Part shown: piece by piece, positions 1,621-19,085 of the stretch
Numbering within the stretch: position 1 is the stretch's first letter
Layout of the letters: each line of letters starts with the position of its first letter
Source: Candidatus Cloacimonadota bacterium
Lineage (GTDB): Bacteria > Hydrothermota > E44-bin80
Assembly: GCA_004375965.1 (NCBI GenBank)
Contig: SOIS01000018.1
Coordinates: 1 to 41,875, forward strand
DNA: 41,875 nucleotides
Direction of reading: 5' to 3'
Translations under genes and position numbers: made by a program
Notes under the pieces: model-generated
What the model was told of the DNA's origin: nothing
What the model saw: only the letters and a program-made list of their open reading frames with translations
Database searches by the model: none

Positions 1621-2859
1621 GTGCCCTATTTTGTTCTTATTTCAATTTTCTTGTTGTTTGTTATTTTCTTTACTGCTACTGAGATTGCCTTAATCTCAGC
1701 AAGTCCGATTAAGATAAGGCATAGAGCAAAATCAGGAGACAGAAGAGCAAAGCAAGTAATTAGATTTTTCTCACAACCAGAAGATTATATCGCTACGATA
1801 CTTATTGGAACTAATTTCTTTGAAGTTGCTATTACTGTTATAGCTACAAGGGCTTTTTCATTATACTGGGGTTTTGCAGGTAAGGTTCTAACAACTTTCA
1901 TTGTCTCTTTTTTAATACTCCTTCTCGGTGAGATAATTCCTAAATCCTTATCAAGGATTCATGCTAATAATGTTGCGGTAATTAACTTTCCTTTACTGAA
2001 AGGCTTCCATATTCTTTTTTTCCCTTTTTCCTGGATAGTTAGAACAATTTCACGTCTTATACTGTTCAGAATTGATGGAAATAAAAAACAAATGTTTAAA
2101 GAGGATATTAACCGTGAAACCTTAAAATGGGCTTTGAATAGAACTGTGATAGGTGATAAAATCAAGAAGATTGATAAGGAAATTTTCTCAAAGATTTTCC
2201 AGTTTAGTGAGAGGCCCGTATCCGATATAATGATCCCTCGGGTTAAAATGAAAATGATAAGGTATCCTTTTAAGGTCAAAGATGTGTTAAGAATGGCAGA
2301 AATGACAGGTTTATCACGGTTTCCTGTTTACAAAAAAGACCCTGATATGATAATCGGAATATTAACAGTAAAGGACGTTTTTACAAAAGAGAGTGGAAAG
2401 ATAAGTAGAATGATCAGACCTGTTAAGTTTGTCCCTCCAAATAAAAGATGTGATATGCTTCTAACTGAATTGAAGGATGAGGTGCCACAGATAGCTGTTG
2501 TTGTTAATGAGTATGGCGAAACCGAGGGCCTTGTCACTTTAGAAGATCTTGTTGAGGACCTCTTCGGTGAGATAGTAGACGAGTTTGATTTAAGGGTTAA
2601 AGAAGAAATGATAAAGAAACTAAATGACAGGGAATATCTCGTTAGTGGTTTAACCAAGGTTGATGAAATAAATGAAGAATTGCATATTGGCATTCCAATA
2701 GGTGACTATGATACAATAAGCGGTTTCATTATGGATCATCTCAAGGAGCTCCCAAATAAGGATACAATGATCGAGGGGGAAAAATTCAGATTAATTGTGA
2801 AGGAGATGGACGGACAGAAGATCAAAAAGGTCAGTGTAGAAATTAAAGAAGAAAGGTAG
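1621..2859 (+). CDS. HlyC/CorC family transporter, tandem paralog (GTG start)
   Basis: TATEIALISASPIKIR; VSDIMIPRVKMKMI; LSRFPVYKKDPDMIIGILTVKDVF; VVVNEYGETEGLVTLEDLVEDLFGEI. GTG directly follows the TAA of the upstream gene. Confidence 0.9.
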   Translation: MPYFVLISIFLLFVIFFTATEIALISASPIKIRHRAKSGDRRAKQVIRFFSQPEDYIATILIGTNFFEVAITVIATRAFSLYWGFAGKVLTTFIVSFLILLLGEIIPKSLSRIHANNVAVINFPLLKGFHILFFPFSWIVRTISRLILFRIDGNKKQMFKEDINRETLKWALNRTVIGDKIKKIDKEIFSKIFQFSERPVSDIMIPRVKMKMIRYPFKVKDVLRMAEMTGLSRFPVYKKDPDMIIGILTVKDVFTKESGKISRMIRPVKFVPPNKRCDMLLTELKDEVPQIAVVVNEYGETEGLVTLEDLVEDLFGEIVDEFDLRVKEEMIKKLNDREYLVSGLTKVDEINEELHIGIPIGDYDTISGFIMDHLKELPNKDTMIEGEKFRLIVKEMDGQKIKKVSVEIKEER

Positions 2860-2913
2860 AGTTCATTTGTGGGTGATATAATATTTTGAAAAAAGAGAGG
2901 AGGTTTCTCGATT

Positions 2914-3348
2914 ATGAGTTATGGTGGAACATGGTACCTTACTGTAGTTCCAATTCTCAGTGCAGCCATTATGCATGCAGCTAATACTTCCAGGATGAAT
3001 AAAACCTATGCAGCAATTAAGGGAACAATACGGACAAGAATGGATCTCAACCTCGTTCGGGATGCTATCAATCTCAGTATGAAGCTGGCCGTCATGTACA
3101 TTGCGCTTTTTGTCATCCTGATTCTTGCGCTTTTTGGTTTCGTTTTCTTACTTAGGATATCGATCTTCACAGGAGCTGCCCACCTTTTCGTTTTTGGAAT
3201 TGTTACCCTTCCTCTGGGATTATGGAGCAGGATGGCTGAGAGGACAATTAAAACACTTCAGGTGGAATCAGATAATCCTGAAATAGAGAAGAAATACCGT
3301 GAATTCCTTGTAAAGTGGGAACAGCCTAGGATAAAGCTGCCAGAGTGA
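2914..3348 (+). CDS. Hypothetical membrane protein (about 2 TM segments)
   Basis: Good ORF with agaggagg RBS upstream; two hydrophobic stretches (LAVMYIALFVILILALFGFVFLL, HLFVFGIVTLPLGLW). Confidence 0.65.
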   Translation: MSYGGTWYLTVVPILSAAIMHAANTSRMNKTYAAIKGTIRTRMDLNLVRDAINLSMKLAVMYIALFVILILALFGFVFLLRISIFTGAAHLFVFGIVTLPLGLWSRMAERTIKTLQVESDNPEIEKKYREFLVKWEQPRIKLPE

Positions 3349-3729
3349 ATTATGAAAAATTGTATACACTGTAATTTTGTGGGATTAAGAGTATCTGAAA
3401 AGAAAATATTAGCCTTTATGTGTTCACACCAAACAATTTTTTTCACATGTTCTAAAACACTAAACTTTACTCCTTCTTTTGGTTTGGGGAAATATACATC
3501 AGTCATTAGAAATCGTCAAGGAAAATCTGTGAGATATTTGAAAACTTCTCAGAGACCACTAATTATTTACCCATCAGATAATTTCTTATCGAACGGAGGA
3601 ACCATGGAAAATTGATAATTGATATATAAATATTAGTTTATCTGTGCCTTCTCTGGAAACTCTGAGTGCTCTCTGGTTTAGTATAAAATATACCGACAGA
3701 AAGTTTTTTTTAATTAGTGAATTTTTTAC

Positions 3730-3758
3730 TTGACAAAAAGTGTATCTTTCTATATAAT
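3730..3758 (+). promoter_or_regulatory. Consensus sigma70-type promoter TTGACA-N17-TATAAT upstream of the HTH/pil operon
   Basis: TTGACA 3730-3735, 17-bp spacer, TATAAT 3753-3758, read directly. Confidence 0.8.
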
Positions 3759-3810
3759 TATAAATAATTAATGATAGTTATAGATAATTATTAAATAGTA
3801 TCAATAATTA
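3751..3810. repeat. Six tandem 10-bp units, consensus NNNATAATTA
   Basis: tatATAATTA taaATAATTA atgATAGTTA tagATAATTA ttaAATAGTA tcaATAATTA; exact 10-bp period ending at the start codon at 3810. Confidence 0.85.
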
Positions 3811-3995
3811 TGGCTATTTCGCTAAAGAGGATAGATCCAAATAAATTTTATACAATAGAAGAGATTTCGAATTTTCTTGACCTTAGTTCCCAAACGATAA
3901 GAAAGTTTTTGAGGTGTAGGAGAATAAAAGGGAAAAAGATTGGTAGAAGATGGCACATACTTGGGAAAACTGTAATTGATTTTGTTAAGGAATAG
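3810..3995 (+). CDS. Excisionase/MerR-like helix-turn-helix DNA-binding protein
   Basis: TIEEISNFLDLSSQTIRKFLRCRRIKGKKIGRRWHILGKTVIDFVKE resembles HTH_17/excisionase-family domains. Confidence 0.8.
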   Translation: MAISLKRIDPNKFYTIEEISNFLDLSSQTIRKFLRCRRIKGKKIGRRWHILGKTVIDFVKE

Positions 3996-4003
3996 AGGTA
4001 ATT

Positions 4004-5038
4004 ATGTTTGGAAAAAAGAAATTTGTTGTTGGGCTTGACATTGGTAGTTCACAAATTAAAGTAGTAGAGCTTACGGGTTACCCGAAAGCAACTACAATCT
4101 TGACAGTGGGAATTGCCCCACTTTTACCCGATGCTATTGTAGATGGTGAGGTGATGGACAGGGAGGTAGTCATTGATACAATTAAGACTCTGTTTGATAA
4201 ATACAAAATCCAGGCACGGGATGTTGCAACAGCAATTTCAGGAAGGGGAGTTATTGTTAAGAAGATAAAAATGGACAAGATGAAAAAAGCAGAAGTTTCA
4301 GATCAAATTAGATGGGAAGCGGAACAATATGTCCCATTTGATATTGATAATGTATCCCTTGATTTTGAGATTGTTAATCCCGACATAGGCGGAGGTCAAA
4401 TGGAAGTGCTCCTAGTGGCTGCAAAAAGCGAGGTTGTTAATTCGTATGTTAGTCTTATAAAGGAGATTGGTCTTAACCCTGTTGTGCTTGATATTTCTTC
4501 ATTCGCAATACAGAATGTTTACGAATTCAACTATCCTCTGTTGCCTGACAAACTGGTGGCACTTATTGCTATAGGAGCAGAGATAACAAATATTAGTTTT
4601 ATAATTAATCATGTAAATCATTTCACGAGGGATATCTTCTCAGCTACTAACAGTTGTTCTCAAAAAATACAGAGAGAGCTTGGATTGAATAGAGCCCAAG
4701 CCGAGCAGCTCATAAAAGGAGAAACAGTTGAAGGAGTGGCACCTGAAGATGTAGATAAATACTTTCAAGCGTTTGCAGAAGAAGTATCAGTAGGTGTCGA
4801 TAAGGTCATTCCTTTTTTGCCAGGCGAAAAGGAAAAAATTGACAGGATTGTGCTCTGTGGTGGTGGCGCTTTGATCCGTGGGCTTGTTGATTATTTAAAG
4901 AATAGATTTGATACAGAGGTTATTATTATCAATTCTTTGAAAAATATAAAATACGAGCCAGCGATTTTTGAAGAGGAGAGAGCAGAGAAAATTTCTCCTG
5001 TTATTGCAGAAGCAATTGGACTTGTTTTGAGAGGTTAG
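4004..5038 (+). CDS. pilM: Type IV pilus assembly protein PilM
   Basis: VVGLDIGSSQIKVVEL actin-like ATPase start; IRWEAEQYVPFDIDNVSLDFEIV; GGGALIRGLVDYL; first gene of a pilMNOPQ cluster. Confidence 0.93.
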   Translation: MFGKKKFVVGLDIGSSQIKVVELTGYPKATTILTVGIAPLLPDAIVDGEVMDREVVIDTIKTLFDKYKIQARDVATAISGRGVIVKKIKMDKMKKAEVSDQIRWEAEQYVPFDIDNVSLDFEIVNPDIGGGQMEVLLVAAKSEVVNSYVSLIKEIGLNPVVLDISSFAIQNVYEFNYPLLPDKLVALIAIGAEITNISFIINHVNHFTRDIFSATNSCSQKIQRELGLNRAQAEQLIKGETVEGVAPEDVDKYFQAFAEEVSVGVDKVIPFLPGEKEKIDRIVLCGGGALIRGLVDYLKNRFDTEVIIINSLKNIKYEPAIFEEERAEKISPVIAEAIGLVLRG

Positions 5039-5076
5039 ATTTAGAAAATATTGTGTAATAAAAGATAGGAGCAAAA

Positions 5077-5718
5077 ATGGTTAGGATAAACCTTCTTCCA
5101 AAGGAAGAAAAGGTTAGAGCAAGAGTTGAAATTCCAAGACCTGTGATTAAGATGCCAACAGGGATTGGTAACTATTTAGGAATAGTTCTCATAATATTGA
5201 TTGTAATTATTTTAAGTGTTATTCATATAAGACAGAAAAGAGCCATTGCTCAGCTGAAAATAAATATTGAAGAGACGAGAAGAGAACTCAGAAAACTTGA
5301 TGAAGTTGTAAAACTTGTTAAAGAGCTTGATAGAAAACGGAGGGATTTAGATGCAAGAATAGAAATAATAAGAGACCTGAACAGAGGAAGATTTGAGAAA
5401 GCTAAATTTCTCTATACGTTAAGTTCTTTACTTCCTGATTATTGCTGGATTCAAAATTTAGATGTGAAAGGAAAGACTGTTTCAATTAAGGGTATTACTT
5501 TTTCAAATCAGGTTATTGCTGCTTTCATGAGAAAGCTTCAGGGTGAGAGAATGTTTCAAAATGTAGAACTGAAAAGCATTGTTGGAAAAGAGGTAGAGAA
5601 ACATAGCGTTATGGAATTTGACCTTTCGACTTCTATTGTATCAGTACCCAGTTCTCACATGGAAAAAACAATGCCAAAAGTAAGGAGTTCAAAATCTAGA
5701 AAAGGAATAACAAAATGA
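5077..5718 (+). CDS. pilN: PilN-like pilus assembly protein
   Basis: Starts MVRINLLPKEEK, single TM, coiled coil, fimbrial assembly fold; between pilM and pilO. Confidence 0.88.
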   Translation: MVRINLLPKEEKVRARVEIPRPVIKMPTGIGNYLGIVLIILIVIILSVIHIRQKRAIAQLKINIEETRRELRKLDEVVKLVKELDRKRRDLDARIEIIRDLNRGRFEKAKFLYTLSSLLPDYCWIQNLDVKGKTVSIKGITFSNQVIAAFMRKLQGERMFQNVELKSIVGKEVEKHSVMEFDLSTSIVSVPSSHMEKTMPKVRSSKSRKGITK

Positions 5719-6284
5719 AAGCTATAGCAAAATTACTTATATTCCTTGGTTTATCAATCATTCTTGTTGTTTTGTATATTTTTCTCATCCACACAAAATC
5801 ATCAAAGGAGATAAGTATATTAAGGGATACCTTTACTACAGTTAGTGATTCCTTAAACAAAGCCCAACAGATAGCAAGTCGTTTGCCAGAGACACAAAGA
5901 GAATATAATTTTTTAAAGAAACAATGGGAAATTGCGCAGGGTATGCTGCCAACTGCAAAGGAGACTGAGCGTCTGTTGAGTATTATTTCTAGGTCTGCAA
6001 CTAAGAACCACATAAAAATCCTTTCCTTCAAACCTGGTAAACTTACAACTAGACAAAATTTTCAGGAATATCCCTTGAATATTACAATCTTAGGGGAATA
6101 TCATAATATCGGGATTTTTTTTAGCGATATCGGAAATCTTAAAAGAATTATAAGGATTGGTGATGTCAGGATGATGGAGAAGAAAGAAGAAGGAATAGAA
6201 ACAATCTTTACAGCATCAAGTTATGTTTACGCTGGTATTCGCACACAACCTCAGGTTCCGAAAAGGGAAGGTGTTAAAAAATGA
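5715..6284 (+). CDS. pilO: PilO-like pilus assembly protein
   Basis: Single N-terminal TM, coiled coil (LPETQREYNFLKKQWEIAQGMLP), C-terminal ferredoxin-like region; ATGA overlap with pilN. Confidence 0.85.
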   Translation: MKAIAKLLIFLGLSIILVVLYIFLIHTKSSKEISILRDTFTTVSDSLNKAQQIASRLPETQREYNFLKKQWEIAQGMLPTAKETERLLSIISRSATKNHIKILSFKPGKLTTRQNFQEYPLNITILGEYHNIGIFFSDIGNLKRIIRIGDVRMMEKKEEGIETIFTASSYVYAGIRTQPQVPKREGVKK

Positions 6285-6841
6285 AAAAAATAAACACTAT
6301 TTTGCTTTTTATCCTTCTTTCAATCTTCAGTTTTTTCCATGCTGGATGTAAAGGAGGAAATCCCTTTAATTTCATTATTGGGAAGATGACAAAATCTGTT
6401 GAGAAGGAACAACTGACCGTACAAAAGGATGTAAAAGAGAAAGTAGGAATAGTTCCTGGAGATTTACCGGAAAAACCCTCTGAGATTCAGGCTGCAATAA
6501 GTGAGGAAGATTCTTTAGCAATTCTTGAAATAGCACTCGGAATCGAACGTTTCCGTTACAGGAGTGGAGGGAGAAGGGATCCTTTTGAAACACTATTCAA
6601 GGGAAAAGAGTTAAATGTTGAAAATGTAAAACTTGTAGGTACTATATGGGGGCCAAAAGGAAGATTTGCTCTCCTCAAGGAGCCAGGGGGTTCTGGTTTT
6701 GTTGTTGGTATCGGAGATAGAATCGCTGATGGAAGGGTTATTGATATAACAAGTTCCAGTGTAACATTTCAAATAAGTAAATTTGGGGTCACCTCAAAAG
6801 TAACCCTAATGTTGGAAGAGAAAATAGGAAAATTAAAGTAG
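6281..6841 (+). CDS. pilP: PilP-like pilus assembly lipoprotein
   Basis: Lipobox HAGC; RRDPFETLFK; KLVGTIWGPKGRFALLKEPGGSGFVVGIGDRIADGRVIDI. Confidence 0.82.
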   Translation: MKKINTILLFILLSIFSFFHAGCKGGNPFNFIIGKMTKSVEKEQLTVQKDVKEKVGIVPGDLPEKPSEIQAAISEEDSLAILEIALGIERFRYRSGGRRDPFETLFKGKELNVENVKLVGTIWGPKGRFALLKEPGGSGFVVGIGDRIADGRVIDITSSSVTFQISKFGVTSKVTLMLEEKIGKLK

Positions 6842-6854
6842 AGAGGTGGTAAAA

Positions 6855-8450
6855 ATGACTGAAAAGAGAGTTTTTTTCTTGAAGATTACACTTCCTTTTC
6901 TTCTACTGCTTGTGAGTTTTTGTCCGCTTTATAGTATACAGTTGCTTGATATAACGGTAAAAGGCACAGCAGTGGAAACCGAAATAACAGTTAATTTTGA
7001 TAGTCCTGTTAATTACACAGAGTTTACAATGGAAAACAAATTGATATTCGATCTTCTAAAAACTGAAAGCGGACTTGAAGGTAATAAATTTGTAGGGATA
7101 AATCGTGGTGGAGTTAATTCGATTACTCTCATTCCATTTTACACTGCTAATCTTTTAAGGTTGACAATTGAACTGATAGGAACCGAAACATATACTGCAT
7201 TCACTGATGGTAATAAATTGTTTATTAGTTTTGCAAACCCTGAAGGGAAACCCTTTGAACCATGGTCTGCCTCTGAGCAAGAGATTACTCCATCAAATCT
7301 TGGTTATGAGGAGACATATGAGGTTCCAGGGTTAATTTCTCTAGATCTTGAGAATGCGGATATTCAGACTATACTGAGGGCGATGGCTCATTACGGTGGT
7401 AAGAATATTGTTGCAGGTGACGAGGTTAAGGGTACCATAACAATGAAGCTGACCAATATAACGTGGAAGCAGGCATTTGATGTGATTGTAAAGACTTCTG
7501 GTTATTCGTACAGAGAGGAAGAAAACATCATTCGTGTAGCACTCGGTATAACTTTTGACAAGGAGAGGGAAAGCAGTGAGTTAGCCCAACCAGTTGTTTA
7601 CAGAGTATATAAACTTTCATTTGCAGATCCCAGAGAAGTGAAGGTCAACGTGGATAAACTGACTTCTAAAAAGGGTAAAGTTGAGGTCGATGGGAGAACA
7701 AACTCTCTTATCGTTACAGATATTGAATCAAGACATCAAGATATAAAAGACTTACTTGATATCCTTGATGCCCCAAATCCACAGGTAGATATAGAGATAA
7801 GGGTTGTAGACATAGACTATGATTATGGAAGGGACCTTGGGATAAGTTGGAGCCTCAGCAATCTAAGAAGTAAGAGACATAACGTAACAGCTGCAGGAAC
7901 CTTGCTTACCCCAGCGCCTAGTTATTTTGATATCACTATTGGAACTGTAAGAAATTTTGCAAAGATTAATGCGTTACTAAATTTCTCTGAGAGGGAAGGT
8001 AAAACAAAGACAATTGCAAATCCAAGAATAACTGCCCTGAACAACAGGGAAGCGGAAATTCTTGGAGGGAGGAAATTTCCTGTTAATGTTCTTGACGAGG
8101 CAGGAAATCTTGTAACAAGATACTTTGAAGTAGGAACAAAACTCAGGGTTACCCCCCACATAAATTCTAAAGATGAGATTACGATGGATATCCATGCCGA
8201 GTTAAGCAGCGTTGATCCTACTACATTAATCATTACCTCCACTGAGGCAAAAACAAGACAGTTGGTAAATGATGGAGAGACCGTTGTTCTCGGTGGATTT
8301 ATTCGTGAGGAAGAACAGCGATCCGAAGCAGGTATACCCATTTTGAGGAGTATACCTATTCTTGGTTATTTTTTCAAAAGAACAGGAAGATCGACGTCAA
8401 AAAGAGAGGTTTTGATTTTCTTAACTCCACATATTATTAAGTACTATTAA
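6855..8450 (+). CDS. pilQ: Type IV pilus secretin PilQ (AMIN + STN + secretin)
   Basis: Secretin motifs VEVDGRTNSLIVTDI, PRITALNNREAEILGGRKFPV, VLGGFIREEEQRSEAGIPILRSIPILGYFFKRTGRSTSKREVLIFLTPHII. ATG at 6855 follows gagaggtgg; the listed 6846 start is GTG. Confidence 0.94.
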   Translation: MTEKRVFFLKITLPFLLLLVSFCPLYSIQLLDITVKGTAVETEITVNFDSPVNYTEFTMENKLIFDLLKTESGLEGNKFVGINRGGVNSITLIPFYTANLLRLTIELIGTETYTAFTDGNKLFISFANPEGKPFEPWSASEQEITPSNLGYEETYEVPGLISLDLENADIQTILRAMAHYGGKNIVAGDEVKGTITMKLTNITWKQAFDVIVKTSGYSYREEENIIRVALGITFDKERESSELAQPVVYRVYKLSFADPREVKVNVDKLTSKKGKVEVDGRTNSLIVTDIESRHQDIKDLLDILDAPNPQVDIEIRVVDIDYDYGRDLGISWSLSNLRSKRHNVTAAGTLLTPAPSYFDITIGTVRNFAKINALLNFSEREGKTKTIANPRITALNNREAEILGGRKFPVNVLDEAGNLVTRYFEVGTKLRVTPHINSKDEITMDIHAELSSVDPTTLIITSTEAKTRQLVNDGETVVLGGFIREEEQRSEAGIPILRSIPILGYFFKRTGRSTSKREVLIFLTPHIIKYY

Positions 8451-8453
8451 ATA

Positions 8454-8481
8454 AAAACGCTCGCAATTGCGAGCGTTTTTT
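8454..8481. terminator. Rho-independent, probably bidirectional terminator between pilQ and purQ
   Basis: AAAACGCTCGC-AATT-GCGAGCGTTTTTT; perfect stem flanked by A and T tracts between convergent genes. Confidence 0.92.
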
Positions 8482-8519
8482 GGTTTAACCAATATTGTGA
8501 CTGACCTTGATATTTCCAG

Positions 8520-9311
8520 TTAAAGGAGGGTTGTTTTAATATAGTTTACGGCATTTTCGATGATGGTAGAACCCATCATAGAACTCTTTATCTTGTTTCT
8601 TCTCCAGTCAGGGTACTGTGTTTGTAATACTGCACGCTCTGGATGAGGCATCATTCCGAGTACCCTGCCCGTCTCATCACAGATTCCAGCAATATTTCTC
8701 ACAGAGCCATTCGGATTTGCCGGGTGTCCTGTTATCTTTCCATTCTTATCTACATATTGAAATATAACCTGGTCTTTCTTAAATAGCTTTTTAAGTATTT
8801 CTTCATCCTTAGTAATAAATTTTCCTTCAGTATGTGCTACAGGGATAAGGAGAAGACCTTCTAAGTCATTAACAAAGACAGTCTTTGTTGAGCATTTTTT
8901 TAAGTATACCCACCTGTCTTCGTATCGTGCTGAATCATTACAAATCAGCGAAACTGATTGGTCAATTTTCCCATTAAGAGCCGGAAGCAGTCCAAGCTTA
9001 ACGAGCACCTGGAAGCCATTGCAGATACCAAGAATAAGTTTACCTTCTTTTATAAATTGCTTGAGTTTATCTATGAAGAAATGTTTTATTTCCGTTGCCC
9101 ATACCTTTCCTGCTGCAATGTCATCTCCGTAACTGAACCCTCCGGGGAAAATCAATATATGAAACCTTTCCAACTTTTTCTTATTCGTATAAAGATCTTG
9201 TGTGTAGACGATTTCTGCGTTGGCACCTGTAAGTTCAAATGCAATTCTTGTCTCTTCATCACAATTTGTCCCTGCAGATTTTAGGACAAGCACATGTGGT
9301 TTTTTTACCAT
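8520..9311 (-). CDS. purQ: Phosphoribosylformylglycinamidine synthase glutaminase subunit PurQ
   Basis: PHVLVLKSAGTNCDEETRIAFELTGA; LILGICNGFQVLVKLGLLP; GMMPHPERA. Start chosen at MVKKPHVLV (AAAGGA upstream), overlapping the purL stop; the ORF track begins at 9329. Confidence 0.93.
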   Translation of the reverse strand: MVKKPHVLVLKSAGTNCDEETRIAFELTGANAEIVYTQDLYTNKKKLERFHILIFPGGFSYGDDIAAGKVWATEIKHFFIDKLKQFIKEGKLILGICNGFQVLVKLGLLPALNGKIDQSVSLICNDSARYEDRWVYLKKCSTKTVFVNDLEGLLLIPVAHTEGKFITKDEEILKKLFKKDQVIFQYVDKNGKITGHPANPNGSVRNIAGICDETGRVLGMMPHPERAVLQTQYPDWRRNKIKSSMMGSTIIENAVNYIKTTLL

Positions 9312-12163
9312 GTAATCCTTTGTTTCCATTTTTTGACGATTGTATCAATATCAAGTTCAACTGCCTTTTTCTTCTTCGTATAAATAGTGAGTTTTTTGGA
9401 ATACTGCACTTCTCCTATCGGTGCATATGGGATACCTTTAATGCAATTCTCAAAGGCCTTCCTTCTCTTCTCTGGTATTTCCACTATGAACCTCGAATTG
9501 GATTCCGAAAAGAGCAGTTCATCATCTCTTAAATTTCCTTCCCGGATAATCTTTTCAAGATACATTACAGCGCCAAGCCTTCCACCAATTATCATCTCTG
9601 AAATTGCAACTCCAATCCCACCTTCTGAGCAATCGTGGATTGCGCTAACATAACCTTTTTTTATTGCGCGATGAATCTTTTTAAGAGTTTTATATGATTG
9701 TTTGAAATCGAGTTCAGGAACTGCATTGCCTGTTCTATTGAAAAGTTTGAAGTAGTGCGAACCTCCCATTTCTTTTTTTGTCTTTCCAATAATATAGATG
9801 AGATTTCTTGCTTGCTTAAAATTACTTGAAGGACTTTTGGTGACATCATCGCAGATGCTAACGCAGGATATTAGGAGTGTTGAGAGTATTGATTTCTTTT
9901 TACCTTTGAGCGAAAATACATTATTCAAGCTGTCCTTTCCAGAAATAAAGGGCACCTTCAATGCAACAGCCGTATCATAGCATCCATAAGATGTACGAAC
10001 GAGTTCACCGAGTATCTTTGGGTTGTTTACATCTCCCCAGGAGAAATTATCAAGTATTGCTGCTTTGTTTGGATTGCCGCCACAAGCAACAGAATTCCTC
10101 ATTGCTTCTTCTATAGATGATGCTGCCATCCAGTATGGATCAATTTTGCCATAGTATGGATTGATCCCACACGTTATAACAATTCCTCTTTTTGAGTCAG
10201 GAAAAGGACGGAGGACTGCACCATCAGAAGGGCCATCGTTTTCCCAACCAACCAGTGGTTTGAGAGCACTCATTCCTTGAACCTCGTGGTCATACTGCCG
10301 TATAACAATTTCCTTGCTTGCAATATTGGGATGTGAAAGGAGTTTAAGAAGTATTTCACCGAGACGTAGCTTTTTAGGTAGCACAGGTTCTGCAAAACGT
10401 TCTCTCTTCCAGTATGCCTTTTTTCTTGAGAGAGGACATTTATTATGAAGGAAGTCCATATCGAGCTCTCCAACCTTCTCATTTTTATAGAGTAACTTGA
10501 GCTTACCTGTATTTTCGAACCTTCCGATTGGCGCAAAATCAACATTATGTTTAGAAAAGACCTGTTTCAACCTGTCCATATCCTTTTGGGGAACAGCAAT
10601 AAGCATCCGTTCCTGTGATTCCGAAATCCATATCTCGTCATACTTAAGTCCTTTGTATTTCAAAGGAACCTTTTCAAGATGAACTACCGCTCCGAGTTCT
10701 TTACCCATCTCTCCTACTGCTGAAGATAAACCGCCACCTCCACAATCAGTAATGGCGTTATAGAGATGTTCATCCCTTGCCTCGATAAGGGCATCAACAA
10801 GTTTCTTCTCAGTTATAGGATTTCCAATCTGAACAGCACCAGATGATGTGATCTCGGAAGTTTCATCAAGTTCCTGTGAAGCAAATGTAACTCCGTGAAT
10901 ACCATCCTTCCCAGTTTTTCCTCCACAGACTACAATTACATCACCATCCCGTGGTGCTTTGAAGCAAAGACTTGCAGGAATAATGCCAATATTGCCGCAG
11001 TAAACAACTGGATTGTAGAGATATTCTTTATCGAATAAAATAGCTCCATTTACTGTCGGAATCCCCATTCTGTTTCCATAATCCCTCACGCCTGCAATTA
11101 CTCCTTTGAATATTCTTTTGGGATGTAAAACACCGGAAGGAAGATTTTTAATTGAAATGTTCATTGGACCAAAACAGAAAATATCTGTGCTTGCAATGGG
11201 TTTTGCACCAAGACCAGTTCCGAGTGTATCCCTTATGACACCTCCTATTCCAGTTCCTGCACCACCGTAAGGTTCAAGAGCAGATGGATGGTTATGTGTC
11301 TCAACCTTAAATGATATGTTGTAATCCCTGTTATATTTAATGATACCAGCATTGTCCTTAAATACTGAAACACAGTAGTCTCTATTTACTTTCTCTGTTG
11401 CCTTCATAATTGTTGTTTTGAGAAGGTTTCTAATCCTTTTCCCGTTATAATCTATTATTCCCTTGAATGTTTTATGAATGCAGTGTTCGCTCCAGGTTTG
11501 GGCAATTGTTTCAAGTTCAATATCAAAGGGTTCCCTTCCATTGTTAAAGAAGTAATCCTGGATGCTTTTCATTTCAACAAGATCAAGGGAGAGCAGCCCT
11601 CTTCTTGAAAGATCAAAGAGTTCTTCATCATTTTTATTTATAATATTGATAGTTCGTTTCTTAAAAGAAAGAATCTTCTTTCTGAAATGAATACTATTTT
11701 TGTCTCTTAACCATATCTGAATGAGGTTATTCATAAGGAGTTTTTTTACAATAAATTCAATCTCTTTTTCATTCACTGCACCAGTTATTTCGTATCGGTT
11801 TCTGGTCTGAACATCTTCTATCTCTTTTATACCAATTTTTTTCATTAGTTTAAGTGTTGTAAGTGCAACGGGGTCCATTACCCCTGGTAGGTATGCTATC
11901 TCTACAAAAGTGATCGTTTTTTCATTACCATGAGTTATGTGATCTGTAAAACTATAGATATCAGAAACCGGATCAGATAATATATCCTTTGCGATCAGAT
12001 CTAATTTCTCTTTTTTGATCTTTTTTGCTTTAAGAATGAAAATTCTTATAAAGCGGATACTCTTGATACCTCTTGACCCAAGATGTTGAACATCCTTCTT
12101 GATTTCTTCACCAATAGGATCTTGGAGTGATGGTTTTGTTGATATCTCAATTCGGTAATACAT
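9305..12163 (-). CDS. purL: Phosphoribosylformylglycinamidine synthase PurL with N-terminal tandem PurS-like domains
   Basis: PurL motifs ETHNHPSALEPYGGAGTGIGGVIRD, DCGGGGLSSAVGEMG, HDCSEGGIGVAISEM. Two PurS-like units in residues ~1-165. MYYRIEI start preferred to 12199, which lies in repeat DNA. Confidence 0.92.
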   Translation of the reverse strand: MYYRIEISTKPSLQDPIGEEIKKDVQHLGSRGIKSIRFIRIFILKAKKIKKEKLDLIAKDILSDPVSDIYSFTDHITHGNEKTITFVEIAYLPGVMDPVALTTLKLMKKIGIKEIEDVQTRNRYEITGAVNEKEIEFIVKKLLMNNLIQIWLRDKNSIHFRKKILSFKKRTINIINKNDEELFDLSRRGLLSLDLVEMKSIQDYFFNNGREPFDIELETIAQTWSEHCIHKTFKGIIDYNGKRIRNLLKTTIMKATEKVNRDYCVSVFKDNAGIIKYNRDYNISFKVETHNHPSALEPYGGAGTGIGGVIRDTLGTGLGAKPIASTDIFCFGPMNISIKNLPSGVLHPKRIFKGVIAGVRDYGNRMGIPTVNGAILFDKEYLYNPVVYCGNIGIIPASLCFKAPRDGDVIVVCGGKTGKDGIHGVTFASQELDETSEITSSGAVQIGNPITEKKLVDALIEARDEHLYNAITDCGGGGLSSAVGEMGKELGAVVHLEKVPLKYKGLKYDEIWISESQERMLIAVPQKDMDRLKQVFSKHNVDFAPIGRFENTGKLKLLYKNEKVGELDMDFLHNKCPLSRKKAYWKRERFAEPVLPKKLRLGEILLKLLSHPNIASKEIVIRQYDHEVQGMSALKPLVGWENDGPSDGAVLRPFPDSKRGIVITCGINPYYGKIDPYWMAASSIEEAMRNSVACGGNPNKAAILDNFSWGDVNNPKILGELVRTSYGCYDTAVALKVPFISGKDSLNNVFSLKGKKKSILSTLLISCVSICDDVTKSPSSNFKQARNLIYIIGKTKKEMGGSHYFKLFNRTGNAVPELDFKQSYKTLKKIHRAIKKGYVSAIHDCSEGGIGVAISEMIIGGRLGAVMYLEKIIREGNLRDDELLFSESNSRFIVEIPEKRRKAFENCIKGIPYAPIGEVQYSKKLTIYTKKKKAVELDIDTIVKKWKQRITW

Positions 12164-13268: not shown

Positions 13269-13295
13269 AATCCCTCCTTTTTACGTTGTTAAAAA

Positions 13296-13431
13296 TAGAA
13301 ATTAGAAATTGCGAAATTAAGAAATTGAAATGCTCAAAACACGAAATTTCGAAACTAGGAAATTGGAAATTGTTTCTTGTATCTTTTGTTTTGATTTTCG
13401 TAATTTTCATTTTCGTATTTTCGTAACTTAA
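13296..13431. repeat. Degenerate 7-8 bp GAAATTN repeats followed by TTTCGTA repeats
   Basis: agaaattagaaattgcgaaattaagaaattgaaatg...cgaaatttcgaaactaggaaattggaaattg ... ttcgtaattttcattttcgtattttcgtaac. Confidence 0.7.
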
Positions 13432-13544
13432 GTACAGTTGTACATTTTTATAATTTCGGATTTTCTGATTTTCATCTTTTTTTCATCGTCTTGATTCTCT
13501 TTTAATCCCGTTTGATTTTCTCCTTGTTATACATTGGTCCGTTC

Positions 13545-16500
13545 TTAGAACTTAAATTCAATCCACACATCCAGACCTGTTGTGCTTGATTTTGTATCCT
13601 GTTTTTTGTCGTTCATTATCGAATAGTTACCTATCAATCCTCCTGTGATATTTTCAGAAAAGTTATAACTAAGGCGTGGGGTAATCATATAGTTGATAAT
13701 ATGGTTTGTTGGTCCAGACTGTCTGGAAGAAATGGAATAACTCTTTGAGTAATTGAAATCAAGCCCAGCATCAAGGTTACTCGAAAACTGTATTCTACGT
13801 CCGAGCAATGGGAACTTCAAACCGGTTGGTGCCCTGAAGGAATATGAAATGGAGACATTATACCCTGATGTTTTTGTTGTGGTTTGATAAAATATTGGAG
13901 AGTAATTGTTAGATTTGTTTACTGTAAAATTGGCGGAGAGATTTGTCCTCACATCCCTGGTCCAGGTCATCTGAAACGATGGACCCCAGGATACATTATT
14001 TGATTCAGATTGAGTGCCTTTCCCAACAGTTTCGTTAGAACCCTTATACTTTCTATAATTAATAGAAGCCGAGGCATTTTTAAGAGCATTATTTTTTGGC
14101 AAAAATTTTGTTAGTTGTGGAAATTGCAGATTTATGTCAGGCCAGGTGGTTGACCTTGATATTTGCTGGCTACTCGCTGTGATATTCCTATTCTTGTTTG
14201 TAGTATATGAGGTATTAAGAGTAAAGATGCTTGTATTAATACCGCTCGAGATTGTGAGGTTGTCTGTAGTGCTCTTCTGGTTGTTTGGGTTAGATTGAGG
14301 ATTAGGATGTTTTAGATCTTTAGGAATTCCTTCCCTTAAACCAAATTGGTATTCCCAGCCAGGTCTTTTTGTGAGAAGACCGAATGATGTGTTCCTGTTC
14401 CTGCTGAGCGACATGTTTGGCCTTGTTATATAATTTGAGAATTGCTCCAGTTTAATTGCAACCCATTGGGGGCTTCCAGTTATTGCTGTAGTATCCTTAG
14501 ATTCGTCGCGAATCCGTGCAATCATTTTCAGTAGTTTTGAAATGGCGAAATCAAATGAGAGTGAAAGAATATTGCTATTCCCGACATTTCTCACAGGGAA
14601 TGAATCTTCCACCATAGTACGATTATTAGGATTTCTATCTTCTGAATAACTTGTGGAAAAGGTGAGTGATGGTCTTGACCACTCCCCGAATGTTGGTGAA
14701 AGGGATGATGAAAATGTCTTTTTGAGGTTTATAACCTCGCCAAATCTTTTTTTCAAGGAATCATTTTCATAGTTTATGTCCAGATCCCTTATTTCATCAT
14801 CGGAATAGTTACCAGTAAAAATAGCTATAGGATTATACTTAATACTTTTTGAAATGGTCAGGTATCGTTTTAGATTGTGTGTGGTCAATTTCCATCCCGT
14901 TGCCTGGCTTGTATAACGTCTTGACCAATTTCTCTTGTACCCCGCACTCGTACCAAAAGATCGAGGAAAATAGTAGAAATTAAAAAGATTCAGTAGTTTG
15001 AGAGGTTTGATTCCGGGTGAAAAACTGTAACTTCCTGTAATACTTCTATGTTTTATTGAATCCATACTTGTCGGTGTCTGGGAATAACTGCTATTATTAG
15101 ATGCATTTATCTTTACAGGATCAATTAAAATGTGACTAAGAAGATTGGTGGATTTTGAAACCTTACTGAAACCGATAGCTTCAGTTCGAGAACCACTCAT
15201 GCTTCTCTCTTTCTTTGCCTGTTCGCTATCGAGTATTACATCTGAGCCGGTTTTGTATTTTGGATAACCAACAGATTTGCTTTTACTGTGGCTCAATGGT
15301 ATATTAAACCCCCATAGCTTGGGGAAGAGTTTTCCAAGTGCAATGGTTCCTGTGTAATGATAGTCTGTTACGTTCGACTGTGCTACCTTGTTCATATTGA
15401 GCTGCTGAAAATCTGCATCGGTTCTTGAAGCAGAGCCACTGAGTGTTAAAAAATCAGCTATTCTTAGTTCCCCTGATATATTCATTTTCATCCCTTTATC
15501 CCTTCTTGGTGATGTTAATCTCAACTCATCTATCCAGAATTCGCCACTTACATCACTATTCCCTTCATTAATAAATCCGAGTTCAAGGTATTTAACATTG
15601 GTTAGGCTTGGATTGTTCCTGAAAGAATAGTTTCCTTTCTTATAATGCGTCGAATCTTCTGGTGCTTCAAGCTTTAAATCTGTCAACGCCTTAAATGGGA
15701 TGGTGATCTCTTTCCATGAAGATGAGATAGTTTCCTCAAATTGATAGTATGTTGTTGAATCACCTCCTATTCTGAAATAGAATTTTAGTGGTCCTCCTTC
15801 ATTGCATTGCACATAAAACTTCATAGTTTTATATGTTGTATAATCGTCTGCTTTACCCATTTGCATAAAGATCGAGCCTTTATGTTGCGGTCTCACATTC
15901 TGAAATTGTAACACAAGAGATTGTTCTCTCTTTCTTCTTCCAAGCTGGTCTTTGCCAGGGTCAAAAGGAGGATTATAATCCGGATTCTCTTCTGTGTTTT
16001 TCTGTGTTACAAATAGTTTCTCATCTGGCTGGACACTGCTAAGGGTATCCAGGGTAGATATACCCATATTTTCCCATGTGGTACCAGTTATTTCTATAGA
16101 GTAAAACTGGAGACTGTCTCTTTGTGAGAATCCATCAATCCATAATCTTACATATTTAACATATTCCCAATCCATCACTCCTATCTTTGTGCCTATTATA
16201 GTATCATCAAGTGGAATCCTGAAGAGTCTCCAGCCATTTGCATGTTCTTCGGCAACATATATGGAATCAGGATTTTCGAGAGAGATTGTATATTCTATAT
16301 ATCGAGAATTTGTATTCAATGCCCCGTCCCTATCAAGATCTTCTGTATCAAGACGGGCATTGTTCTCTGTTCCATTGAGTTTACGATAATCGGATTTGGT
16401 AATGGCATGCTGCGGATAATCGTCGTTACCATCGTCACCTGGAATATTGTCGCTATCTTTCCCCTGTATACCATCGAGACCTGTATCTTCGTTTTTATCG

Positions 16501-19085
16501 AGCAGACCATCCTTGTTTTTATCCTCAGAATCAATTGTACCGTTGTAGCCAACAATAGTTCCTTCCTTTGTCCATCTCGGTATATCTTCAGGGATACTTC
16601 TACCGATGTCAAAATGGAGTGTTCCGCGTGTTCCCTTTACCCAGAATTCAAGAAACCTCAACTTTGAAAGATCTTCACCAGTCTTTGAAATCAGGTTCAG
16701 TAGACTTAACCAGGAGCTCGGGTCGTTATTTTTTGGATAAAAAACAATACGTAAATATGAGGTCAAATCATCCTTCTGGTCTTCGGGTAGATTTGGAAAT
16801 ATATCACCCCTTTTTATCCACTCATCCCTTATGGGTTCGTACCAGTAATACTTTCCAATTGTGCTTGTGTCTTTACCCTGTGGAATGCTTCCATAATGCC
16901 ATAACCACATTGATGTCCCAATATCGGATGTCTGTTTCACACCCTCCATGTCATCTATATAGACCTCTCCCATCGAATTGGGGTCGGGCATTGAGAGAGC
17001 AACAACCCCATTTATTTTTGCTTGAGAGGGCTGTTCAGTTTCTATAAGAGGAAGTTTATCACAGAGTGTTGTTAGAAAATTGGGGTGCGTGGTGAAACTC
17101 CCATCAATCTCACCCACTACTACACTTCTTGGTTCCTGTCCCAGTTTTGGTCTTTCATCAAATGTTGATATATTTCTGTAGATCCAGCTTGTTCCTATTT
17201 TGTTATTTTGCGAAAGATTATATTCCCCACGGATTCCAATAAGTGATTTTGAAGCAGTCGAGAAGAAAGGTGCATACTGGTAATCAATCGTCAGCTTTGC
17301 ATTTGGTTGAGCCATAAGTTCTTTTCCTCTTCCTTTAAATTCAACACTTCCCGTATTGTAATCTATCGTGTATTCAATATCTCTCTGGAGTGTGATACCG
17401 TTAACACTCACCACTTCAGAACCCTCTATAATATTGAGCTGACCGAGAAATATCATGGTTTGCGCACCTTTATATGTCATTTCTATATAGTACTTGCGAA
17501 GGTTTGCATTCGTTGATGTTGTATCGTAAATAACAGTATTGGGATCGTTTAGTATGGTGGAATCTGCAAATGGACGTAAACTTGGGAATCTAATAAGTCC
17601 TCTCTCGTTATCAACAAACTGTCTATCAATATATCCATCTTCATTTTCATCTATACCAAGTAAAAAAGAATATTCTATAGTATTCTGTGTTGTTGAATCT
17701 TCCCCTTCGCCAGAAGAATATTTTTTTATTATAATACTAATTCGGTCCGGGTTCGGAATTTTTGATGCTCCGAAGGAATAATAATTTCTCAGTTCGTAAT
17801 TCCAAGTTTCGTAAGAAGGATTGTTATTTTCGGGCTTTAACAATTTTAGCATAAATGTATCACCTGGAGGATACGAACCGATGGTATCTATCTGATTTGT
17901 AACTCTGTTCTTTTTTATATACCGTACTGCCAGGACATATTCGTTTACTAATGGTACATTAAGATAGAGTAAATTTCCAAAGAGTTCATAATCCGCTGTC
18001 GGTAGCTTTTCATCAAACATCCCCATATAAAATAGGAGTGTATCCAGTGTATCTGCATTGAGATAGACCTTTGCAGGTACAGCCATAGTATCATTAGTAT
18101 AATTTCTGTCATCAATATAAACATCAAATTCAAGAATAGTATCATTACTAACAAAATTCATATCTAAGTAAAAAAATCTTCTCCTTTCATAATCAATATC
18201 ATTCCTTACTATGGTATCCTGTCGTGACTGACCAATAAATGTTGTCTGGTCGCTCTCTCCCTGTTCCTTGCTTGCTACTGCTGTAATATCGAGCGGTCCT
18301 ATCTTCGCAAGAGCTTTTATACCAAATAGACCTTTATAACTTGGTGGGGCACCAATAACCATTGTCCCTGGTAGGCTCATATCTGTATCACCAGCTTCTA
18401 TCAACTGGATGATTTCGTCCTCCTCACCCTTGTACTGGAGTTTTATCTTATTTTGCAGGTCAGATTCCGCTTCACTGTTGTGGTCTATAAAGACATGTAT
18501 TTTCTGACCAACCGTTCCCTGGAGATTCACATTTAATATCTGTTTCATCTTTAGTTCGGGAAGAATAGACCTGCTTTCATTTGGACGATGAGTCCTGTCA
18601 TAAAATGTTGTTTTTTGACCACCGAAATCAATCTTCTCGCTTCCCCGAACAGAAAGCTTACCTCCTTCACCTATAATTCCAGATATGGGTGTTTTTATCC
18701 TGGGCAGTTCAAGATCAGGGACAAGCCCCTGAGTGTATGCTGTCCCTTTCGTCTGGACTGCCTTTTGTGTCTCCTCAAACCAAAGCTTTCTCATAGAGAG
18801 TTCTGAATAGTGTCTTATGAAATCTTTCATACTCTCTATTTTATAAAAATCAAGGAAGATATTATACTTATAAAGTTCGTATGTTATCATTTGATTTTCA
18901 AAATAGGGATGAAAAACCTTTTTTACTGGTGATAGTTTTGAAAAATATGAATCTGCAAAATCTTCCCATGATAAATAAACAGTCGTTGAATCTATTTTAA
19001 GAGTGTCGATATTACTCTCCTGTGTAAAAGATAGGACTGAAAGAGATATAAGTATAGTTGCAGATATTAATATTATTCTTGTCAT
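13545..19085 (-). CDS. sprA: SprA-type giant cell-surface / outer-membrane translocon protein (T9SS-associated)
   Basis: 1846 aa with signal peptide; GLVPDLELPRIKTPISGIIGEGGKLSVRGSEKIDFGGQ; repeated beta-strands; EF-hand-like DKNKDGLLDKNEDTGLDG and DLDRDGALNTN; C-terminus WIEFKF. Resembles the SprA family. Confidence 0.82.
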   Translation of the reverse strand: MTRIILISATILISLSVLSFTQESNIDTLKIDSTTVYLSWEDFADSYFSKLSPVKKVFHPYFENQMITYELYKYNIFLDFYKIESMKDFIRHYSELSMRKLWFEETQKAVQTKGTAYTQGLVPDLELPRIKTPISGIIGEGGKLSVRGSEKIDFGGQKTTFYDRTHRPNESRSILPELKMKQILNVNLQGTVGQKIHVFIDHNSEAESDLQNKIKLQYKGEEDEIIQLIEAGDTDMSLPGTMVIGAPPSYKGLFGIKALAKIGPLDITAVASKEQGESDQTTFIGQSRQDTIVRNDIDYERRRFFYLDMNFVSNDTILEFDVYIDDRNYTNDTMAVPAKVYLNADTLDTLLFYMGMFDEKLPTADYELFGNLLYLNVPLVNEYVLAVRYIKKNRVTNQIDTIGSYPPGDTFMLKLLKPENNNPSYETWNYELRNYYSFGASKIPNPDRISIIIKKYSSGEGEDSTTQNTIEYSFLLGIDENEDGYIDRQFVDNERGLIRFPSLRPFADSTILNDPNTVIYDTTSTNANLRKYYIEMTYKGAQTMIFLGQLNIIEGSEVVSVNGITLQRDIEYTIDYNTGSVEFKGRGKELMAQPNAKLTIDYQYAPFFSTASKSLIGIRGEYNLSQNNKIGTSWIYRNISTFDERPKLGQEPRSVVVGEIDGSFTTHPNFLTTLCDKLPLIETEQPSQAKINGVVALSMPDPNSMGEVYIDDMEGVKQTSDIGTSMWLWHYGSIPQGKDTSTIGKYYWYEPIRDEWIKRGDIFPNLPEDQKDDLTSYLRIVFYPKNNDPSSWLSLLNLISKTGEDLSKLRFLEFWVKGTRGTLHFDIGRSIPEDIPRWTKEGTIVGYNGTIDSEDKNKDGLLDKNEDTGLDGIQGKDSDNIPGDDGNDDYPQHAITKSDYRKLNGTENNARLDTEDLDRDGALNTNSRYIEYTISLENPDSIYVAEEHANGWRLFRIPLDDTIIGTKIGVMDWEYVKYVRLWIDGFSQRDSLQFYSIEITGTTWENMGISTLDTLSSVQPDEKLFVTQKNTEENPDYNPPFDPGKDQLGRRKREQSLVLQFQNVRPQHKGSIFMQMGKADDYTTYKTMKFYVQCNEGGPLKFYFRIGGDSTTYYQFEETISSSWKEITIPFKALTDLKLEAPEDSTHYKKGNYSFRNNPSLTNVKYLELGFINEGNSDVSGEFWIDELRLTSPRRDKGMKMNISGELRIADFLTLSGSASRTDADFQQLNMNKVAQSNVTDYHYTGTIALGKLFPKLWGFNIPLSHSKSKSVGYPKYKTGSDVILDSEQAKKERSMSGSRTEAIGFSKVSKSTNLLSHILIDPVKINASNNSSYSQTPTSMDSIKHRSITGSYSFSPGIKPLKLLNLFNFYYFPRSFGTSAGYKRNWSRRYTSQATGWKLTTHNLKRYLTISKSIKYNPIAIFTGNYSDDEIRDLDINYENDSLKKRFGEVINLKKTFSSSLSPTFGEWSRPSLTFSTSYSEDRNPNNRTMVEDSFPVRNVGNSNILSLSFDFAISKLLKMIARIRDESKDTTAITGSPQWVAIKLEQFSNYITRPNMSLSRNRNTSFGLLTKRPGWEYQFGLREGIPKDLKHPNPQSNPNNQKSTTDNLTISSGINTSIFTLNTSYTTNKNRNITASSQQISRSTTWPDINLQFPQLTKFLPKNNALKNASASINYRKYKGSNETVGKGTQSESNNVSWGPSFQMTWTRDVRTNLSANFTVNKSNNYSPIFYQTTTKTSGYNVSISYSFRAPTGLKFPLLGRRIQFSSNLDAGLDFNYSKSYSISSRQSGPTNHIINYMITPRLSYNFSENITGGLIGNYSIMNDKKQDTKSSTTGLDVWIEFKF

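Follow-up and report, generated by a model that had tools for sequence, protein, structure and literature searches.

Small regulators acting on phased direct repeats

Proteins of the BldC type are monomers in solution. The Streptomyces protein BldC recognizes AATTXXXX(C) repeats, binding head to tail to DNA repeats of 9 to 10 bp (PMC5859096). Its binding is cooperative, the number of its sites varies, with two at whiI and four at smeA-sffA, and it represses targets such as whiI (PMC5859096). Apl of phage 186 binds seven direct repeats placed at 10 to 11 bp between promoters, where it represses transcription in a highly cooperative manner that requires at least three sites (PMC7498355). RdfS assembles head to tail into filaments and exerts negative control over its own gene (PMC11963761). 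With regard to pili, Mlut_14660 of Micrococcus luteus is a member of the HTH_17/excisionase family that adjoins pilus genes; a screen for changes in com gene expression recovered mutations in it (PMC8467076).

The window analyzed here is the whole stretch of 41,875 nucleotides, one contig (C245) of a 2.29-Mb genome, in which a gene for a small helix-turn-helix (HTH) protein precedes pilus assembly genes. By analogy with the above proteins, and judging from a structural model, its mode of action would match that of BldC and Apl, and its fold that of Xis and RdfS. Like BldC, it is short, consists essentially of one MerR-like winged HTH and has no dimerization or effector domain; its predicted target also consists of AT-rich direct repeats one helical turn apart, in six to seven units, many of which contain AATT. 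However, BldC is a global developmental regulator, whereas the window protein is a putative local regulator encoded beside its own operator. Furthermore, the BldC motif contains a C-G pair that is read by Arg30, whereas the motif found here, TARTTAT, has no fixed G/C; there are six or seven repeats; and the two proteins share 14% identity (the BldC sequence agrees with PDB entry 6ama). Apl likewise acts on direct repeats about one turn apart, but its role is in phage lysis-lysogeny and excision, whereas the array in the window precedes a pilus operon with no integrase among the inspected genes. RdfS (8dgl) and Pukovnik Xis (4j2n), the best Foldseek matches, belong to the same HTH group 17 but are mobile-element excision factors, and RdfS has no consensus site. 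Mlut_14660, which stands beside Flp pilus genes and emerged from the com-expression screen, provides a precedent for a link between HTH_17 proteins and pili; its neighbors, however, are the Flp (tad) pilus genes cpaB and cpaE of an actinobacterium and not pilM, and the accessible part of that report describes no operator array (PMC8467076). The features of the locus in the window are as follows.

3730 to 3735, + strand: -35 box TTGACA, read directly from the sequence
3753 to 3758, + strand: -10 box TATAAT, at a 17-bp spacer from TTGACA
3750 to 3809, + strand: putative operator array of six 10-bp units, from the -10 box to the start codon
3810 to 3995, + strand: gene of the HTH_17 protein (61 aa), an excisionase/BldC-type winged HTH and candidate autoregulator; heads the operon
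4004 to 5038, + strand: pilM (PilM_2, 3.8e-63; TIGR01175 above cutoff)
5077 to 5718, + strand: pilN (PF05137, 6.3e-18)
5715 to 6284, + strand: pilO (PF04350, 2.6e-28)
6281 to 6841, + strand: pilP-like lipoprotein gene (PF04351, 6.2e-4, under the gathering cutoff; named also from its operon position)
6846 to 8450, + strand: pilQ secretin (Secretin, 8.1e-44; AMIN; STN; TIGR02515, 2.8e-82, slightly under cutoff)

A consensus promoter and a 10-bp array precede the HTH gene

An earlier note on this DNA had pointed to a consensus promoter, and the stretch from 3730 to 3758 indeed matches the sigma-70 consensus at 12 of 12 positions (TTGACA-17-TATAAT), which is unique at that score within positions 2800 to 9400. 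The units of the array are, in order, CTATATAATT, ATAAATAATT, AATGATAGTT, ATAGATAATT, ATTAAATAGT and ATCAATAATT, and the ATG follows directly at 3810. Their TARTTAT cores start at 3755, 3765, 3775, 3785, 3795 (degenerate) and 3805. Four of the units (1, 2, 4 and 6) match ATAATTA exactly; unit 3 (ATAGTTA) differs from it at one position and unit 5 (AATAGTA) at three. Thus, the six consecutive 10-mers in exact register that the earlier note had reported hold for the register, which is unbroken between the -10 box and the ATG, but not for the quality of the copies. Similarly, its placement of all units on one face of the helix is only approximate, since a 10.0-bp spacing against 10.5 bp per turn causes a drift of about 0.5 bp per unit, or roughly 85 degrees across the array, unless the protein alters the twist.

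Among the 60-bp stretches of the window, the array had the highest period-10 score (48, versus a shuffle mean of 36.1 with an SD of 2.4). None of 20,000 dinucleotide shuffles of its own 60 bases equaled this score, which argues against a chance origin, and Tandem Repeats Finder detected the array independently (period 10, 5.8 copies). The array extends into the start codon of the HTH gene, ahead of which a Shine-Dalgarno sequence is absent, whereas pilM has one (AGAGG). At the start of pilM (3999 to 4006), TAATTATG is found in all four genera of the family as a further copy of the operator core beside the Shine-Dalgarno sequence; this copy may merely reflect AT-rich spacing. Short tandem repeats of 7 to 16 bp (AGAAATTG, TTTTCATTTTCGTAA) occur in the intergenic region from 13292 to 13473. 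An Rfam search of positions 3000 to 5200 gave two weak, implausible snoRNA-type matches and nothing else.

The HTH gene heads a pilus operon

In agreement with the earlier note, the gene of the 61-aa protein heads the pilus operon, with pilM starting 8 bp downstream. The operon is taken to end at about 8450, since the next gene is convergent. The neighbors searched comprised CNNM/CorC transporters, pilMNOPQ, a purine-synthesis amidotransferase and SprA. The transporters form an adjacent pair of CNNM/CBS/CorC paralogues (364 to 2859; 418 and 412 aa) directly upstream of the pilus operon. Close to the operon, at 13545 to 19085 on the - strand, there is a gene for an 1846-aa SprA_N protein (PF14349, 3e-21), which is a homologue, in a WOR-3 genome, of the very large gliding/type IX secretion translocon.

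The HTH protein matched Pfam family HTH_17 (PF12728) with an E value of 7.7e-8 (32.9 bits, against a gathering cutoff of 27), as did 15 of 15 relatives. An AlphaFold2 model generated with 15 relatives (pLDDT 88.9) consists of a helix-turn-helix, a two-strand wing and a last helix, a single domain without a coiled coil or effector domain. A sequence search of the PDB returned weak matches only. In a Foldseek search of the PDB, the top ranks were occupied by Pukovnik Xis (4j2n), RdfS (8dgl) and the BldC-DNA complexes 6ama and 6amk, with TM scores of 0.64 to 0.76 and E values of 8.6e-3 to 0.1, modest values that are expected for 61 residues. The BldC complexes matched with TM scores of 0.69 to 0.72, rmsd values of 1.6 to 2.8 and E values of only 0.05 to 0.2, and ranked below Xis and RdfS. 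An hhalign comparison with BldC gave a probability of 57% over 34 columns, covering the HTH part alone. In the alignment, Thr29 corresponds to Thr27 of BldC and the basic wing is retained, and the position of the guanine-reading Arg30 is occupied by Lys32, which we infer to fit a motif without fixed G/C. Judged by sequence and model, the protein appears to fit most of the testable features of the BldC family, but not the Arg30-C motif.

Other identities were considered. The term excisionase-like, used in the earlier note, is appropriate for the fold, given the rank of Xis and RdfS, but not for membership in the excisionase family: the TIGR01764 score was 26.4 bits, under the cutoff of 28.8, and no integrase was found among the neighbors searched, so that the name is unsuitable; the linkage to pilM is moreover kept across families. 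The MamR model NF040990 was one of the two best NCBIfam matches for all 15 members (best E value, 8.9e-11), all under the cutoff; the window protein scored 38.9 bits against an equivalog cutoff of 100, and MamR differs in its magnetosome context. MamR itself might control its own operon as an autoregulator of the BldC type. Classical MerR activators bind a palindromic site in an over-long promoter spacer of 19 to 20 bp and possess a dimerization helix. In the window, the promoter spacer is 17 bp, the direct repeats lie downstream of it and the dimerization helix is absent.

The array is conserved in four genera

We compared the window with three further genera of its family (G001 to G003; L003, L004 and L005), which contain the same HTH-pilM pair and promoter. 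The earlier note had named loss of the periodicity in relatives as one outcome that would speak against it; the 10-bp register is instead exact in these three genera. Counted back from the ATG, the leaders of all four genera consist of whole 10-bp units up to the -10 box with zero remainder. Measured from the first base of the -10 box, this leader portion is 57 bases long in three genomes and 67 in L003, which is exactly one extra unit, and the unit numbers are 6, 7, 6 and 6. This long array was seen in four genera only, and all genomes are metagenome assemblies. The consensus of the unit is ATnnnTARTT (21 units), with T at position 10 in 21 of 21. Between-genome identity was 0.63 to 1.0 (mean, 0.83) at the core columns 1, 2, 6, 7, 9 and 10, whereas it was 0.30 to 0.57 at the spacer columns 3, 4, 5 and 8, with 0.30 at column 3. 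The four-fold synonymous sites of pilM in the same genomes are near saturation, with identities of 0.32 to 0.59. Since the core columns were kept while these sites diverged, selection holds the core and not the spacer. The spacer bases vary among the units of one genome as much as across genomes, which disfavors a recent tandem duplication. In the wider group, every WOR-3 relative examined, L028 included, has TTGACA and a TATAAT-like box at a spacing of 16 to 18 bp upstream of the HTH gene.

Spaced sites accompany the HTH gene in some other families

Strong matches to the HTH protein were obtained in 16 of 147 WOR-3 genomes, and in 16 of 16 the gene lay immediately 5' of pilM; a pilM-like gene (E<=1e-20) was present in 106 of the 147. 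Two further small phyla also have the HTH-pilM pair (L126, L127 and L130). The N terminus MAIS/MALS.. is common across families, which supports the annotated ATG, although the family of the window lacks a Shine-Dalgarno sequence at the HTH gene; other families do have one.

A site matrix was built from the units of the window's family alone and used to score site pairs at spacings of 5 to 15 in other HTH-pilM leaders. A spacing of 10 was the best of the 11 (Fisher p=7.4e-7 over nine genus representatives outside the family); the form of the motif had been spotted by eye in relatives beforehand, which the family-only matrix and a control without the HTH gene were meant to offset. The runner-up spacings of 14 bp (6.6e-4) and 6 bp (2e-3) probably follow from the near-palindromic nature of TAnnTAT. 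In L006, four units share the register of the array in the window, and with the -10 box removed, p<=0.03 was still obtained for L006, L008, L009, L010 and L016. The control consisted of 17 pilM promoters from genomes without the HTH gene, in which pilM follows an equally good promoter. None of these 17 reached p<0.05 at a spacing of 10, compared with 7 of 12 HTH-containing loci outside the family (Fisher p=5e-4); since loci are not independent, the count by genus was 4 of 9 versus 0 of 12 (about 0.02, hand-computed).

The array search at related HTH-pilM loci proposed in the earlier note was thus successful in part: the register is found within the family and a shorter form in f10 and f17, but the array is missing or reduced to a single site in f5, f13, f35 and the other phyla. 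On the sequences compared, multi-site operators are accordingly a trait of the AT-rich families f1, f10, f17 and perhaps f9. In f36 (L097, L098 and L099), which has no HTH gene, the long pilM leader contains an inverted repeat of the GGGGGAATAGCCCC type, possibly another leader control.

A search for further arrays genome-wide (three units, at most three mismatches) gave 19+21 matches, several of which were the array itself, versus 23+24 for a reversed-pattern control. The array matches being no more common than this control, no regulon was found, and the regulator looks local, as a second array was not found in the genome. In G002, the matches were mostly to a different dispersed repeat. This AT-rich repeat (AGTGTATTNGTAGTTATTGNTAGTTATTTGT..), with an inner spacing of about 10 bp, is found on contigs C21, C436, C462, C469, C654, C63, C87 and C427.

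Proposed mechanism and alternative explanations

We consider it likely that a BldC/Xis-like monomer assembles on the array and autorepresses HTH-pilMNOPQ. The 61-aa protein would act on its own as a winged-HTH regulator with a mechanism of the BldC/Xis type. Its monomers would occupy the TARTTAT units in one orientation, one per 10 bp, and would touch head to tail, a contact from which cooperative filling is proposed to arise. The resulting filament would extend over the -10 box, the start site of transcription and the start codon, blocking RNA polymerase at a near-ideal promoter. Repression is preferred to activation, given that the sites overlap a promoter whose boxes already match the consensus at a 17-bp spacing. 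With the HTH gene in first place, negative feedback would reach the whole operon and could keep HTH-pilMNOPQ expression at a set level. The cooperative autoregulatory operator envisaged in the earlier note gains from the array being kept in relatives and missing from pilM promoters that lack the HTH gene. In a bolder version, which we regard as unlikely, the filament would act as a switch and not as a mere brake: the six or seven phased sites, which also take the place of the ribosome-binding site, would put the entire type IV pilus alignment/secretin operon under steep, possibly bistable on/off control, and the threshold would evolve as whole 10-bp units are gained or lost.

It is rather improbable that a different factor, such as a nucleoid-associated or global regulator of AT-rich phased DNA, binds the array while the HTH protein acts elsewhere. 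Many proteins are drawn to AT-rich phased tracts, but the spaced sites go with the HTH gene (7/12 loci outside the family vs 0/17 pilM promoters without it), and the genome search returned no second array. Control at the level of the mRNA leader, with the repeated UAAUUAU governing translation of an HTH gene that has no Shine-Dalgarno sequence, has little likelihood. The units of the window's family do occupy the place of a Shine-Dalgarno sequence and extend to the ATG; however, the first unit shares bases with the -10 box, ahead of any transcript, and in f10 and f17 the units are at the -10/start region, with a separate purine-rich Shine-Dalgarno site by the ATG. In addition, the folds predicted for the leaders are no better than those of shuffles (z of -0.75 to 0.87).

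That intrinsic curvature from phased AATT tracts sets promoter strength with no bound protein is extremely unlikely. AATT recurs every 10 bp, but many units have AGTT or AAGT in its place, which preserves TAnnTAT without forming an A-tract, and the estimated wedge-model curvature was not above shuffles in the window (7.8 degrees, p=0.95) or in three relatives (p of 0.08 to 0.39), so that the intrinsically bent DNA suggested in the earlier note was not borne out. A neutral minisatellite that arose by chance in the leader is just as hard to credit. Other short AT-rich repeats exist in the genomes of the family, such as dispersed TAGTTATTNGTAGTTATT stretches in G002, but the core columns are fixed over four genera despite near-saturated synonymous sites while spacers vary freely, and other families have shorter versions of the array.

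Significance of the HTH-pilM pairing

In the literature searched, from which most subscription journals were excluded, we found no report of an HTH-pilM pairing or of a six- to seven-unit operator, nor a dedicated in-operon regulator gene for pilMNOPQ. The type of regulator is known from BldC and phage excisionases; what is unreported in that literature is its use on a pilus assembly operon. The locus provides a small, self-contained system from an uncultured phylum, made up of one 61-aa protein and one putative operator of 60 bp, in which the number of sites, their spacing and cooperativity are open to testing in a laboratory host. It would also offer a second natural family of BldC-type filament regulators, and the contrast between genomes with and without the HTH gene in one phylum allows the gain or loss of the regulator to be compared directly.
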